From positions 3,472,001 to 3,536,000 of the forward strand of contig JAKULF010000004.1 of assembly GCA_022661535.1 (NCBI GenBank): 64,000 bases of DNA, in the 5' to 3' direction. Below the pieces are notes generated by a model, which was not told where the DNA came from, did no database searches, and saw only the letters and a list, made by a program, of their open reading frames with translations. Source of the stretch: Eutypa lata (Eukaryota > Ascomycota > Sordariomycetes > Xylariales > Diatrypaceae). Of this stretch, positions 21,831 to 55,588 are shown piece by piece; the stretch's first letter is position 1, and each line of letters opens with the position of its first letter. Made by a program: the position numbers and the translations under genes.

Positions 21831-22928
21831 ATGCTGAGCAACATTTTCCTAGCGGTGCTAATCCCAGTTCTTCTGGCTAAACCAATCGAGTAAGTCTCCA
21901 TCGGATGATATAATGTGGCTAGTTAACTCACATTATTCAGGGTACCAAACGTTCATGTGGTTCGCGATGACTCCAAGGAAGCACCCACTGTCACTGTCCT
22001 ACCTAGAGACGATGTAATTTTCCCATGGCCAACAGTAAAGCTCCCGTCTCTTAGCTTTCCCCTCCCGACAGCTTTACCAACCACGGGTCTATCCACCATC
22101 GCCCTACCTAGCATCAGTCTACCCACCACCGGTCTACCCAGCATCAGTCTACCTACTATCGCTCTACCTACCACCGCTCTACCCAGTATCAGTCTACCCA
22201 CCGCTGCTCTACCCAGCGTGAGCTTGCCCCACATCAGTCTGCCTTCCGTTACTCTACCTTCCGTCGCTCTGCCTTCCGTCGCTCTGCCTTCCGTCAGCCT
22301 TCCTACCATTAGCTTGCCAAACTTCAGTCTACCCACCGCCGACCTACCCACTATCGGCCTACCAACTATCGGCCTACCAACTATCGGCCTACCAACTATC
22401 AGCTTACCCCCTATCGGCCTACCCACCAGCATCGAAGCATCAGCCGTCACCCCACACCTCCCAGATGTTTCAATAGGCCCGATCTTACCGAGCCCCCCAT
22501 CGAGTGCCTGCGACTTATTGTGCACTGATATCTGCTTTCGCGCAAACGTCGGCTTCGAGTTCGCGAATTGCCGGAATAACTGCATCAAGTTATGTGATAG
22601 CTATTTCCCCGGCAAGAGACAAGAGGTATTACCACCACCACCACCACCACCATCACTAAAGGCAACCCACATTGCCCCTTTCTTCTCCTCCTCTTCCTCC
22701 TCCTCCTCGTTGTTGACGGCCTGCGGTTGTGGGCCTCGCTGTTCTGCTGAAGTTAAAGCTAATGGTCTCACAGACGCCCTAATCTGCTTCGATGCATGTC
22801 TAGCAACGTGCCTTGACGTTCCGAATGTGACGAGTACTTCAATCACGAATGAAGTTACCAGAGTGGTTTCTCCTTTAGGGGGTAGTTTCCCCTTGAGGGT
22901 TAAACGGGGAGATGGAATACAGGAATGA
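21831..22928 (+). CDS. Secreted LPxIx pentapeptide-repeat protein with two six-cysteine modules
   Basis: I do not recognise a named family. Exons are 21831-21889 and 21941-22928 with a 51-nt intron (gtaagt...attcag), giving 348 residues. Residues 1-16 are a hydrophobic signal peptide (MLSNIFLAVLIPVLLA). Residues 65-179 are 23 uninterrupted pentapeptides of the form L-P-[ST]-[IVTA]-[SAGT], encoded by a 15-bp tandem repeat. A six-cysteine module follows at residues 210-238, spaced CX3CX3CX11CX3CX3C. A spacer with GKR, seven prolines and poly-Ser leads to a second module (CGCGPRC ... CFDACLATC) with the same CX3CX3C end. The C-terminus has another dibasic KR. The dibasic sites could be Kex2 targets; that is inference. 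Secretion, wall association or effector function are possible. The poly-Pro/poly-Ser spacer might be a missed intron, but the frame is open across it. Confidence 0.72.
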
Positions 22929-23611: not shown

Positions 23612-25318
23612 TTAGCAGCCAACGTAGATGGCGTTGGCGAAGAGCCTATATATCACCCGTTAGTATCATGTGCCTGAACGTTAGGAACTTACATCTTATT
23701 TCTTTTTCTTTTATTGTAGAAGACAGAAATAGTCGGATATAGCCATTTTATGCGGGTGCAGGTGTCCCACACCGCAGGATTTTGAGGCTTAAGACATGTG
23801 TACTTACTACAAGAGAATGTTAGCTACCAGTAAGCTCCAAAGCAATAATCAAACGAGCACAACTCAGTGCCCAGCCAATGCTATCAACCGGGCCAGGAGG
23901 AGGTGAGGAGATGAGGGGATACATACCGCGTAAGTGTCAGCGTGTCGCAGGTTCTGCGAGGCAGAGAGCCCCCGGACACCACTGTAGCCGTAGGTGCTGT
24001 AGTCATCGGTACCGGCGATCTGGCTAAGGTGGGTGGTCTCGTGGAGGGTGGTGGTAGCCTGGTCCTGAGCGTGGCAAGTGCGCGAAAGGGGGGACAGGGC
24101 GCTGAAGTACAGAGGGCAGTTCACCATGTACGATTGCGACGGCAGCGTGTACGCCAGGACTGCATATAATATCGGGAGTCAGCAACAGGTCTTACATGGT
24201 GGAAGTCTAAAAGAAATTGAAATAACCACGGGGAAATTGCTTACCGTTGCTGGAGCACGCCCCGTACACGTCAGAGCAGTAGTACCGTGCTACTCCCGAC
24301 GACGTGCTGCCGCACTCAGTGGCCACACGGGTGAACACGCTCGAGACGGTCGATCGCGTGCTAGTAGTGCTAGACTTGTCTGTATGACAGAAAATAGAGG
24401 CTAGAGTCAGCGACTGCTCACATACTCATCTAAGGAATCGGATTTCTCTCTTTCGAAGTCCCTCCTGAATTAGGGGATAGACAAAAAGAGAAGAGAGAAG
24501 ATAAAACTCACAGTACTCCTCAAACTTGGCGGCAGCACCAGAAGAAGCAGCCGTAGCAGCAGCACGGGCCAGGCTGGCGCAGCTGCTCTCGGCGCTGCGG
24601 ATGGCGGTGAGGTAGGAGCCGGTGCAGTCGGACTGGACGATGGAGCGCTTGTCGAGGCTGAAGAAATCGGCGCGGGCGGCGGCGGCCTCGGCCCCGTCGA
24701 CCTCGACGGACGCGAGGACGTTGCTCGAGAAGGGGACGACTCCCGCGATCTCGGTCGTGTTCAGCTCGGCGTACGAGAAGACGCCCTCGGCCGAGAGGTC
24801 GACGGCTCCCCCGGAGCTCAGGTCGTGCGTCTGCGCCACGTCGAAGGTCGAAGTGATCGTCTCGCCCGCCGCGATCGTCTGGAATACGTCCTCCGATAGG
24901 CCTGTGGTCAAGGCGCGCAGACGGATGCCCTCGAAAGTGAGCTTGTTGCCTTTTTTTATTTATAGTATTAGTATTATATGCCAACTAAGTGCTACTACTA
25001 CTAAGACGTAGGTATCATGCCATGTCATGGTCATGGCATGGTCATGTATATCTAGATAGGTATATCATTGTTTTTTTTTGTTTTTTTAAACGTACTAGCT
25101 TGGAAGACGCCGACCTTCTCAACGGGAGTCTCGTCGAGGAGAGAGCTGGTCTTGAAGAGCTTGAGGTCGGTCTCCCCGTTGTTGGTGATGCTGGCCTTGA
25201 CGGCAGTGTTGCCGACCATCTCCAGCTTCACCTCGAGGGGCGTGTCGCGCTTGCCGAGGTCGATGGACACGGCGCTAGCCAAGGAGGCCAGGAAGGAGAC
25301 GCTAGCGAGGAACTTCAT
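23612..25318 (-). CDS. Deuterolysin, secreted M35 zinc metallopeptidase
   Basis: An extracellular metalloprotease made as a preproenzyme. Exons on the minus strand: 25318-25096, 24949-24512, 24379-24245, 24159-23928 and 23645-23612, giving 353 residues. Residues 1-16 are a signal peptide (MKFLASVSFLASLASA). The propeptide runs to the dibasic site LDKR at 173-176. The mature enzyme is then 177 residues, the usual size for deuterolysins. The zinc motif HETTH is at 305-309, followed by GTDDYSTYGY and HADTYA, which carry the acidic residues expected for the third ligand. Splicing the final exon gives the family C-terminus LFANAIYVGC. Simple GT-AG splicing of the last intron misses the phase by one base; a [D1,2] stwintron fixes it (see the separate feature). 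The first intron ends in an unusual AAG acceptor. A TATA box lies 116 nt upstream of the ATG. Confidence 0.88.
23646..23927 (-). other. Putative [D1,2] stwintron (intron within an intron donor)
   Basis: The exon ends at 23928 in codon phase 2 (HADTY plus GC). Base 23927 is G. The internal intron 23926-23807 (gtatgt ... branch gctaac ... ttgtag, 120 nt) separates that G from TAAGTAC at 23806. Removing it creates a perfect donor, GTAAGT, for the external intron, which ends ctaac...tatatag at 23646 (162 nt in total). The final exon then begins with G, completing GCG (Ala) and continuing LFANAIYVGC-stop. No single intron between these exons keeps the frame, because the only usable GT follows GCG in phase 0 while the final exon needs phase 2. 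Confidence 0.75.
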
Positions 25319-53188: not shown

Positions 53189-55564
53189 ATGTCTCGATTT
53201 CTAAACCCTGCCAAGATTGGCCTGTTGGCCCTAATCGAACTATATACCAACAAGGCGGTACCGACCTCTTCGATTGTCGAGGTTCTTTCCTTCATCACAT
53301 CCCATTTGATCGACTATGATCTTTCAAGCACGTCTACCGACCCTAAAGGACGATGGAAGAGAGCAGAGAGCACCGTCGGCCTGGTCATCTCGATTGCCGA
53401 TTTCGAGAAGGTCTTAACCCCACTTACCGCAGCATCTGGCATGCCAGGTCGGACTCTGTGGTATGTTTTTGTCGACAAGCTATGGAATATTGATTCTTTT
53501 GATGCTCTCCATACATTTGTCAACAATTGCTCTAAGCTTTTAGTCAAGACTAAGGAGGAGCTGCGTCGCGATGCCGAGATGGGCATTGCTGCCCCTGGAC
53601 CTGAGGTCATTCTACTATCTCGCAATTCGCCCTTTGGTGCCTTCGTGCGCAGAGCACAGCTAGAATTCACACGACTGAGATTTCACGACTCCCTTGAATT
53701 ATGGAAAGACTTTGTCAAGTACCGTCAGACAACCGCGACCTATTATCGCAGGAAGACATCTTCATTCCAGAGGCTCAGCTTCGACAATGTCCTCCTGACT
53801 GGAGAGTCAGAATGGGGTACAGGTGTAGAAGCCATCGCGTCGGTAGCATATGGCGACATGCTTCGGGATGATCCGACATCAACGCTGCCTGTCAGCACAG
53901 ATGACATTGAGAAACTCTTGGAGTTTCAGATCGAGCAAATGCAGAAGTATGGCAGCCGAATACCCTTAGAGATACGACACCAGTTTCAAGATCTGCTCAA
54001 TGACAGCTCCATGATTCCGAGTCTTTCCCACTACCTTAGTTACCTAGACGCCTGGAGAGCGGGCGATTACTCAACGTCCTTTGACTATCTACATCGATAC
54101 TTCGACTACACGATGCAGAACCGGGACAGATTATTCTACCAGTACGCCTTAATGAACCTTGCAGTACTCCAGGCCGACTTTGGATGCTATAAGGAAGCGG
54201 TTGCCGCGATGTTAGAGACTGTCTCGACAGCTAGAGAAAATCGGGACATGACCTGTTTGAACTTCGCTCTCAACTGGCTCTTCCATTTCGGTCGAGCGCA
54301 CCCTGAGGTCACCAGACTGTTAGAGTCAAATAGCATGCTTGGCACAACCAAGGAGTCGCTAGCATTTCTACGAAACAAAGCCAAGGAGACGGGTATGTGG
54401 TCGTTGTGGAGTTCAGCTCTCATGAGCGAGGCCAAAATGTGCCTCTCCAATGGTGAAAACATAGCCACAGCCCTAGAGCATATAGTCAGAAGCTCCCAGA
54501 TATTAGTGGAACGCAACATCAAGAGCATGATAGGCTCGCAACTATCCCTCGGTATCGCATTATGGGATCGCCTCGGCGTCTCCTATCTTTCCTTCACCAC
54601 CTGTGAAGTATTCCTGCGCTGCCACGCGCGTCACTCGATATTCGACGACGAGCTCAAAGTCACAAGCCGACAAGCCTCTATGCTAGCCCTGCGAGGTAAA
54701 TACGACGAAGCCCTCTCCAAACTCGAAAGCCTCGAGGCGAACTCCCTCCGCGCCTGGAAATCCAGCCAATACTGGCACAAGTTCCGGGGCATCATCAAGC
54801 TACGACGGGACCTCCACCACAACAACCTAGACGGCGCCGAGCTCCTCCTATCGCAGCTCCTACAGTCCAAGAGCGAGGACCTAGAGCCCGACCTCGCCTT
54901 CGTCATCGACACCCTGCACGTGGACTGCCTCGCGCGACGCGGCGACCTCCCGGCGGCCCTCGCCAAGGTTGAGTCGCTCGTCGCCATCTTCCGCGACGAG
55001 AACAAGGACGTCGCGCTACGTATACGCCTCCTGCTCCTCAAGGCTGAGCTGCTCGACCGCGCCGGCCGGTCCCGCAAGAGTCTGACCATCTCCATGCGCG
55101 CACTCCACGCTGCCTGGCGCGCCCGCCTGTTACCTTACTTGTGGCCGGCGGCCGGCAGCGTCGCTGTCGTGCTGATCTCCCTGGGCGAGTTCCCGGCCGC
55201 GGTGCGCCTGCTCGCCGCCGTGCTCCCGCGCGCCCTCGAGTGCAGCAACGCCGCCATGGTGGCGCGGCTCTACGCGCTGCTGGGCGACGCGCAGGTCGGG
55301 ATGGCGGGCGAGAATGTGGCTGATGGTGGTGGTGCTGGATCGAGCCGGGGTAGACGGGAGTGTTTCACCAAGGCGATGGCGGCGTTCGAGAAGGCGTTCG
55401 ATCACTACTCCGCCATCGAGGACGTCGGGAACCAGTGCGAGATGCTGGCTAAGAAGGCCACCCTCATGAAGATGGCGGGAGATCATCTGCTCGCGAATGA
55501 TTATGCGGCGGCGTATGTGGCGCTGAGACGGGAGGCGATGGAGAAGTGGGGTTTTAGGGGTTAG
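53189..55564 (+). CDS. APC5: Anaphase-promoting complex subunit 5
   Basis: A scaffold subunit of the APC/C ubiquitin ligase, which drives the metaphase-anaphase transition. The single exon encodes 791 residues starting MSRFLNPAKIGLLALIELY, typical of fungal Apc5. The family core is YLSYLDAWRAGDYSTSFDYLHRYFDY, followed by tetratricopeptide-like helices (LMNLAVLQADFGCYKEAVAA, LNFALNWLFHFGRAHP). The C-terminal half is a series of Ala/Leu-rich TPR helices, with GC content and codon bias rising sharply from about 54.6 kb. The stop TAG at 55562-55564 is part of a G-rich TTAGGGG-like repeat, so the last codons (GFRG) come from the repeat edge. It is convergent with CIA30. Confidence 0.9.
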   Translation: MSRFLNPAKIGLLALIELYTNKAVPTSSIVEVLSFITSHLIDYDLSSTSTDPKGRWKRAESTVGLVISIADFEKVLTPLTAASGMPGRTLWYVFVDKLWNIDSFDALHTFVNNCSKLLVKTKEELRRDAEMGIAAPGPEVILLSRNSPFGAFVRRAQLEFTRLRFHDSLELWKDFVKYRQTTATYYRRKTSSFQRLSFDNVLLTGESEWGTGVEAIASVAYGDMLRDDPTSTLPVSTDDIEKLLEFQIEQMQKYGSRIPLEIRHQFQDLLNDSSMIPSLSHYLSYLDAWRAGDYSTSFDYLHRYFDYTMQNRDRLFYQYALMNLAVLQADFGCYKEAVAAMLETVSTARENRDMTCLNFALNWLFHFGRAHPEVTRLLESNSMLGTTKESLAFLRNKAKETGMWSLWSSALMSEAKMCLSNGENIATALEHIVRSSQILVERNIKSMIGSQLSLGIALWDRLGVSYLSFTTCEVFLRCHARHSIFDDELKVTSRQASMLALRGKYDEALSKLESLEANSLRAWKSSQYWHKFRGIIKLRRDLHHNNLDGAELLLSQLLQSKSEDLEPDLAFVIDTLHVDCLARRGDLPAALAKVESLVAIFRDENKDVALRIRLLLLKAELLDRAGRSRKSLTISMRALHAAWRARLLPYLWPAAGSVAVVLISLGEFPAAVRLLAAVLPRALECSNAAMVARLYALLGDAQVGMAGENVADGGGAGSSRGRRECFTKAMAAFEKAFDHYSAIEDVGNQCEMLAKKATLMKMAGDHLLANDYAAAYVALRREAMEKWGFRG

Positions 55565-55588
55565 GGGTTAGGGATTAGGGATTAGGGG
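55557..55588 (+). repeat. Telomere-like G-rich tract at the APC5 stop codon
   Basis: Five G-runs of three or four separated by TTA or ATTA (GGGG, GGGG, GGG, GGG, GGGG). This meets the usual G-quadruplex pattern and lies on the APC5 sense strand. Confidence 0.8.

Follow-up and report, generated by a model that had tools for sequence, protein, structure and literature searches.

The window, i.e., the whole stretch of 64 kb of DNA that was analyzed, contains an intact M35 deuterolysin gene on its minus strand (25318-23612), and the gene model (Table 1) gives a product of 353 residues. M35 peptidases are defined by the motifs HExxH plus GTxxD, and the spliced product has both HETTH and GTDDY and matches Pfam PF02102 over its full length, which identifies it as an M35 deuterolysin. 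With the exons joined, this match reaches 322.2 bits and covers profile positions 7-352 of 352, that is, up to the last position. The solved "neutral protease II" 1EB6 aligns with the product to the last residue, a Cys, and is gap-free at the junction discussed below; in the M35 family, the terminal Cys is held in a disulfide. Some other features of the region were also recorded. The acceptor of intron 1 (24950-25095, minus strand), AAAAAAG, is unusual, and an inverted repeat (CATGACCATG..CATGGCATG) was noticed by eye inside this intron. The protease gene is adjoined by a plus-strand open frame of 333 codons (21927-22928), which consists of many LPxxxLP-type repeats of five residues (15-bp repeats at the DNA level) and then a Cys-containing part. 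Rfam and tRNA scans of the 64-kb window returned no matches at their thresholds.

Table 1. Features of the deuterolysin gene, of its twin intron and of the repeated introns elsewhere in the genome (window positions unless contigs are named)
Feature	Position	Strand	Details
Exon 1	25096..25318	-	ATG at 25318; gene model and Pfam PF02102
Intron 1	24950..25095	-	146 nt, GTACGT...AAAAAAG; plain; gene model
Exon 2	24512..24949	-	gene model
Intron 2	24380..24511	-	132 nt, GTGAGT...ATACAG; plain; gene model
Exon 3	24245..24379	-	gene model
Intron 3	24160..24244	-	85 nt, GTAAGC...ATGCAG; plain; gene model
Exon 4	23928..24159	-	ends in phase 2 in codon GC/G after HADTY; holds HETTH and GTDDY
Whole twin intron	23646..23927	-	282 nt in the [D1,2] reading; 23926-23645 in the [A2,3] reading
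G1 of split external donor	23927	-	[D1,2] reading; exonic in the [A2,3] reading
First constituent intron	23807..23926	-	120 nt, GTATGT...GCTAAC (23824-23819)...TTGTAG; internal in [D1,2]
Hybrid site TAG/TAAGT	23802..23809	-	G at 23807 common to both introns
Second constituent intron	23646..23806	-	161 nt plus a G (162); TAAGTAC...ACTAAC (23664-23659)...TATATAG; external in [D1,2]; with G23807, internal in [A2,3]
Exon 5	23612..23645	-	34 nt: G, codons for LFANAIYVGC and TAA; reads G CTC TTC .. TGC TAA
Repeated introns	L080-L094 on C1, C2, C6, C7, C8, C13, C15, C20, C21		GGTATGTATAAAAACATCTTGCCCCTGAATCC..GGACAACATGTTAATATGCAAGCAG; about 14 members, ~150 nt

Near the 3' end of the gene, 282 nt (minus strand, 23927-23646) split HADTY-GC from G-LFANAIYVGC. 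Exon 4 ends with ..TAC GC at 23928, followed by a G at 23927 and by GTATGT from 23926. A consensus U2 intron is thereby placed between G1 and T2 of an external donor (G23927 / GTATGT..GCTAAC..TTGTAG / TAAGTA), and the external intron has its own branch point, ACTAAC, followed by 10 nt and TAG, with the conserved frame restored behind it. An initial annotation of this DNA had proposed a [D1,2] stwintron (a donor-split twin intron) here, in which the lone G at 23927 joins TAAGTAC to form a GTAAGT donor for an external intron ending in TATATAG at 23646. All of its coordinates and sites were confirmed on the minus strand, and the claimed restoration of the frame, of the codon GCG and of the family C-terminus agrees with the PF02102 match, which runs to the end of the profile. 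On the other hand, exon 5 begins with a G (23645) directly after the last acceptor, and TTGTA plus this G rebuilds the upstream acceptor, so that the element is equally [D1,2] or, shifted by one base, [A2,3], with the introns in reverse order and an identical mRNA. That the same stretch can be read in both ways when the first base downstream is a G has been described in passages of three papers (PMC5639578; PMC9024468; PMC8469720). Thus, a stwintron is by far the best reading of the locus, whereas its assignment to [D1,2] is not unique. A third consensus donor, GTAAGT, is also present within the external intron and delimits a potential intron of 47 nt (23692-23646, minus strand) with the same branch point and acceptor.

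The G at 23807 is the one base shared by the two consensus introns, and each intron would use a site that the other destroys, so that their removal would have to be sequential. In the [D1,2] order, 23926-23807 would be removed first, G23927 would then join TAAGTA to give GTAAGT, and G23927 together with 23806-23646 would follow. In the [A2,3] order, 23807-23646 would leave first, TTGTA would join G23645 to give TTGTAG, and 23926-23808 and that G would be excised afterwards. Either order would result in the same mRNA (..HADTYALFANAIYVGC), with a predicted mature junction of ..CTTACGC/GCTCTTCGCC.., and the intermediates are predicted to read ..TACGCG/TAAGTACAC.. for [D1,2] and ..CTTGTA/GCTCTTC.. 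for [A2,3]. Two spliceosomal cycles and an order between them are inferred here from the arrangement of the sites, and the [D1,2] order appears to be the more likely one because its first intron is shorter and is transcribed first.

Other splicing routes through this stretch were enumerated. Single introns were taken as GT-AG pairs no shorter than 42 nt whose donor lies at 23935 or below; only one of these, from GTTGAT (23888) to 23646, puts LFANAIYVGC in frame, with an off-consensus donor and 13 extra residues. The initial annotation ascribed a +1 frame error to the removal of a single intron, which holds for 23926-23646 but was not exhaustive, since this one route stays in frame. For two-step splicing with consensus sites (GTRWGY donors, DYTRAY branch point, HAG acceptors), 10 routes were obtained, six of which reach LFANAIYVGC, and only two, giving the same mRNA, yield ADTYALFANAIYVGC without inserted residues; no other consensus route leads to an insertion-free family C-terminus. 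Loosening the donors to GTNNGN increased the number of routes to 37 and of those reaching LFANAIYVGC to 10, and the insertion-free ones were the same two. Removal of the internal intron alone (23926-23807) gives a stop at GCG TAA and 343 aa (306.8 bits to PF02102), and a distal splice alone (23926-23646) gives the +1 frame and 399 aa (308.3 bits), the PF02102 matches ending at profile positions 342 and 343, respectively. When only 23807-23646 is removed, a product of 363 aa with a foreign tail is obtained, which ends 20 codons on in intron sequence. Every incomplete product would thus appear to be defective, as the [D1,2] intermediate would stop at the junction and lose the last ten residues and the terminal Cys and the distal splice would shift the frame, and there is no reason to propose a regulatory role for the element. 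A U12-type intron from GTATCC (23922) was also considered and was dropped after examination of the sequence by hand, as it does not give the frame of LFANAIYVGC; ascomycetes are generally not known to possess the minor spliceosome.

A total of 589 homologues were found, and the counts given here refer to the 120 matches listed. The family end ADTYx[LI][FY][AS]..C occurs without insertion in 101 of these 120 matches, and an end identical to LFANAIYVGC in 34 of the 120, while the remaining 19 of the 120 are models that end early or continue into different sequence. These homologous C-termini indicate that LFANAIYVGC is coding. A break after L[FY]A[NQ], four codons further on, was present in 15 models among the 120 matches listed. 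Within the same genome, a paralogue on contig C14 (L003:2481-2534) reads RHADTYAQFANAIAVGC followed by a stop, uninterrupted and with the same GCG codon, so that the seamless junction is backed by this copy as well as by the 101 of 120 listed matches. Another paralogue, on C8, matches profile positions 75-346 in one open stretch. The homologue P0001 is 78% identical over the whole length and has a complete C-terminal end; it comes from a contig of 1378 nt and is therefore probably a transcript or an intronless copy. In P0089 (source name Colletotrichum sublineola), the model breaks at ADTY/GK, as if there were a plain phase-1 intron displaced by one base relative to the stwintron, and a one-nucleotide intron shift is possible in this case.

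The three Monosporascus models among the 120 matches listed, DL771_000919, DL769_001652 and DL768_006965 (77-80% identical), all break at ADTY[AS], the codon that holds the stwintron. P0003 and P0004 end with ..HADTYS directly after that codon, as predicted for a phase-2 [D1,2] element whose external donor is TAAGT if just the internal intron were spliced out (NNG TAA), and P0002 runs on into ADTYAADPCATIPEEG.. (ADPCATIPEEG..), for which no simple prediction fits. All three models fail at the same codon, with loss of the ten conserved C-terminal residues and the terminal Cys. These protein models suggest that the stwintron is common to Monosporascus, and the breaks could instead reflect another annotation failure. 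The locus offers a clean example of an intron on which automatic annotation will probably fail.

Considering the sites, the frame and the match of the last exon to the family end, the stretch 23927-23646 can be interpreted, with a probability of roughly 0.93, as a U2-type stwintron of ambiguous [D1,2]/[A2,3] class, located in phase 2 towards the 3' end of an intact gene that encodes a secreted M35 deuterolysin. Chance formation of the hybrid site was assessed by holding the first 7 and last 24 nt of the element and shuffling its interior 20000 times. Of these shuffles, 300 of 20000 (1.5%) produced an HAG/TRWGY hybrid site together with a branch point, and 20 of 20000 the stronger YAG/TAAGT form; these figures control the site alone, and the restored frame and C-terminus come in addition. 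On both strands of the 64-kb window, the full motif was found at this site only, as compared with four matches in total in 20 shuffled windows. Neither the similarity between the internal and external introns nor their self-symmetry was above that of shuffles (428, 320, and 240 of 500 as good).

Several other explanations were weighed. If 23926-23807 were the sole intron, the gene would end at GCG TAA (..HADTYA and stop) and LFANAIYVGC would be a fossil of coding sequence. The intron itself is good, the stop is clean and two of the Monosporascus protein models end at exactly that residue; however, exon 5 still codes for the precise C-terminus of the family, up to the terminal Cys and stop and identical to that of 34 of the 120 matches listed, and is preceded by a consensus branch point and acceptor, whereas relaxed selection should have eroded it. 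Since the product is, in addition, 15 bits lower with a PF02102 match ending at 342 of 352, this explanation is considered highly improbable. Slightly less credible still is one ordinary intron with a weak donor, from GTTGAT (23888) to TATATAG (23646), 243 nt, which would give ..HADTYA-VCIPSSPHLLLAR-LFANAIYVGC. Although it is the one enumerated single GT-AG intron that keeps LFANAIYVGC in frame, and uses the good branch point ACTAAC, its donor lacks the +5 G and falls outside GTNNGN, the consensus donor GTATGT 38 nt upstream would have to be skipped, and the 13 added residues have no counterpart in 101 of the 120 matches listed or in the gap-free alignment to 1EB6. The least probable explanation, which can hardly be entertained, involves two separate introns flanking a small coding exon. 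Consensus routes of this kind exist, such as 23926-23824 or 23926-23803 combined with 23692-23646 (47 nt), but the additional residues that they would place between ADTYA and LFAN, numbering 44 or 37 (or, with looser donors, 18 or 11), are absent from the 101 of 120 listed matches with a complete end.

A different question is whether the stwintron, being real, is spliced once at its distal sites (23926-23646) in part of the transcripts, which would keep one G and encode the frameshifted product of 399 aa. Such distal missplicing of [D1,2] stwintrons is documented (PMC12403724, PMC9024468). In the M35 element, a duplex can form between the first 13 nt and the segment that runs from the external branch point to the acceptor (-13.3 kcal/mol, attained in 14 of 5000 partial shuffles), and the same measure gives -1.0 to -3.2 for the three plain introns of the gene and -1.8 and -4.4 for the constituent introns. 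This stem has 11 bp, includes a bulge and a single GU pair and covers most of the donor; it could bring the distal sites together, and if real it would favor occasional distal missplicing. However, little weight is given to it because the test was devised after the fold had been seen; of 18 branch-point-plus-YAG tails in the window, among which the element's own may be counted, one pairs equally well with this 5' end, the whole element does not fold conspicuously well (z -1.63, matched by 12 of 200 shuffles), and the product would be out of frame. Occasional distal splicing of the stwintron therefore appears possible but rather unlikely. A similar near-terminal stem, pairing the 5' end with the stretch between branch point and acceptor, has been reported for sister stwintrons with NTIRE-10 elements, and the full NTIRE-10 pair is present in only some of these according to PMC12403724. 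Unlike these, the M35 element has no relatives in its genome, its stem has letters unrelated to NTIRE-10 (GUAUAAAAAC), and, given the bulge and the GU pair, no fully complementary NTIRE-10 pair was found in it.

The initial annotation regarded such introns as rare, which is wrong for this lineage: more than 1500 [D1,2] stwintrons have been reported in Hypoxylaceae (PMC9024468) and 288 sister stwintrons in 14 Xylariales (PMC12403724), and further candidates are present in the same genome (see below). The M35 element shares with the [D1,2] stwintrons of Hypoxylaceae and Xylariaceae (PMC9024468, PMC12403724) the donor split between G1 and T2, the consensus sites and the one-G overlap, and differs in the gene concerned and in a host that appears to be nearer to Diatrypaceae/Monosporascus than to either family. 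It is comparable to the Hypoxylon class termed "uniquely occurring" (strain CO27-5: 81 of 117; PMC9024468), as a DNA search found no sequence relatives in its own genome. The gap between branch point and acceptor is mostly 14 or 19 nt in the sister stwintrons described in PMC12403724, in contrast to 10 nt in the M35 external intron. A parallel in splicing exists with the alternatively spliced [D1,2]/[A2,3] stwintrons of the Helminthosporium solani alternative oxidase gene and of a multidrug pump gene, which also have a G after the element and two exclusive orders with the same mRNA; two alternative pathways were demonstrated in H. solani, according to PMC5639578, whereas in the M35 gene they are predicted. 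The view that none had been described in an M35 peptidase is consistent with the literature search, in which no paper joined "deuterolysin" with "stwintron" or "Monosporascus" with "stwintron". In the main text of PMC12403724, PMC9024468 and PMC8469720, none of "deuterolysin", "M35" and "peptidase" occurs, and that of PMC5639578 has neither "deuterolysin" nor "M35". As this kind of intron is already well documented in these fungi, the M35 element is one more example, and a single additional stwintron will not surprise a specialist.

A genome search with the pattern RCTAACN{4,12}YAGTAAGT gave 22 matches; two permuted patterns gave 17 and 16, and the reversed pattern 23 (the match lists include a few overlapping duplicates), so that no genome-wide excess of the short hybrid pattern was found. 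Real and control matches separated only when a full [D1,2] model was required, which could be built in 8 of the 22 real matches versus 2 of 17 and 0 of 16 permuted ones (8/22 vs. 2/33, Fisher p 0.006); the M35 site is among the eight, and excluding it leaves 7 of 21 versus 2 of 33 (p 0.013). Four further domain-supported [D1,2] candidates appear to be present: one in a pirin gene, two in a single 2OG oxygenase gene and one in a choice-of-anchor B gene. In the pirin candidate (L022, C5:2269358-2269378), the first-acceptor version, with one extra residue, is spanned at the junction by matches to PF02678 and to solved pirin-like proteins; the element ends in a TAGTAG double acceptor, and the second acceptor, three bases on, gives FEIFSY/VLSGELTHRDSM, which is closer to the family. 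The candidates L035 and L036, about 356 nt apart on C21, lie in one 2OG-Fe(II) oxygenase gene, and PF03171 extends over both junctions (27 bits vs. a cut-off of 23), with a weak solved relative (E 1.4e-4). The strong candidate of 201 nt in the choice-of-anchor B gene (L078:1501-1701; junction FFD/IYPEDD), which was located via the 5' signature of published sister stwintrons, is crossed by TIGR04312 (101.3 bits; cut-off 100). For L017, open stretches of 108 and 263 codons surround the junction, with no Pfam domain matched, and the frames of L026, L029 and L031 do not convincingly support a [D1,2] model.

The signature in question, G + GTATGT + ATAAAAAC, corresponds to the 5' start of published Xylaria sister stwintrons, in which the 5' NTIRE-10 overlaps the donor (PMC12403724), and was found nine times in the genome, compared with none for the backwards control. 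Seven of the nine occurrences clearly belong to a family of similar elements of ~150 nt ending in ..GGACAACATGTTAATATGCAAGCAG; in addition, L076 matches this repeated family in two pieces, and L078 has a weak match to it at the 3' end (E 4e-4; small search). With one member as the query, 15 matches at 14 places were returned, two of the matches being pieces of one place. Most members look like plain introns without a hybrid site, 12 of the 14 are preceded by a G, and 5 of the 14 contain TTTCTAGAAA, which is quoted in a passage of PMC8469720 as the central palindrome of a cropped sister intron of Hypoxylon. The repeated introns thus look like a sister-stwintron or introner-like family or like cropped sister stwintrons. 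A DNA search with the M35 element in its own genome found itself only (E up to 10), and a profile of the 14 repeated introns did not report it (E up to 1000, filters off); a likeness of its 3' part to the family, noticed by eye, was dropped with these negative searches. Tentatively, and at a little under even odds, sister stwintrons and cropped forms of them may be propagated outside the two published families as well, and the M35 stwintron may be an old single-copy product of this process, common to Monosporascus.

The indication of stwintrons, and of repeated introns with the published sister-stwintron start, in a Xylariales genome apparently outside Hypoxylaceae and Xylariaceae bears on the question of intron spread. 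The host is a Xylariales fungus and is probably nearer to Diatrypaceae/Monosporascus, as judged from two proteins whose close values do not settle the family. The nearest named matches of the M35 protein, among those listed, are from Monosporascus (77-80%), which is placed in Xylariales incertae sedis in the NCBI taxonomy. The APC5 protein of the window has one 100% match, to an ENA record, followed by four Monosporascus proteins and Diatrype stigma at 81%; identities are 79-81% for Biscogniauxia and mostly 74-79% for Hypoxylaceae and Xylariaceae. A telomere-like repeat inside the contig, TTAGGGG x5 (window positions 55554-55588), overlaps the end of the APC5 open frame.
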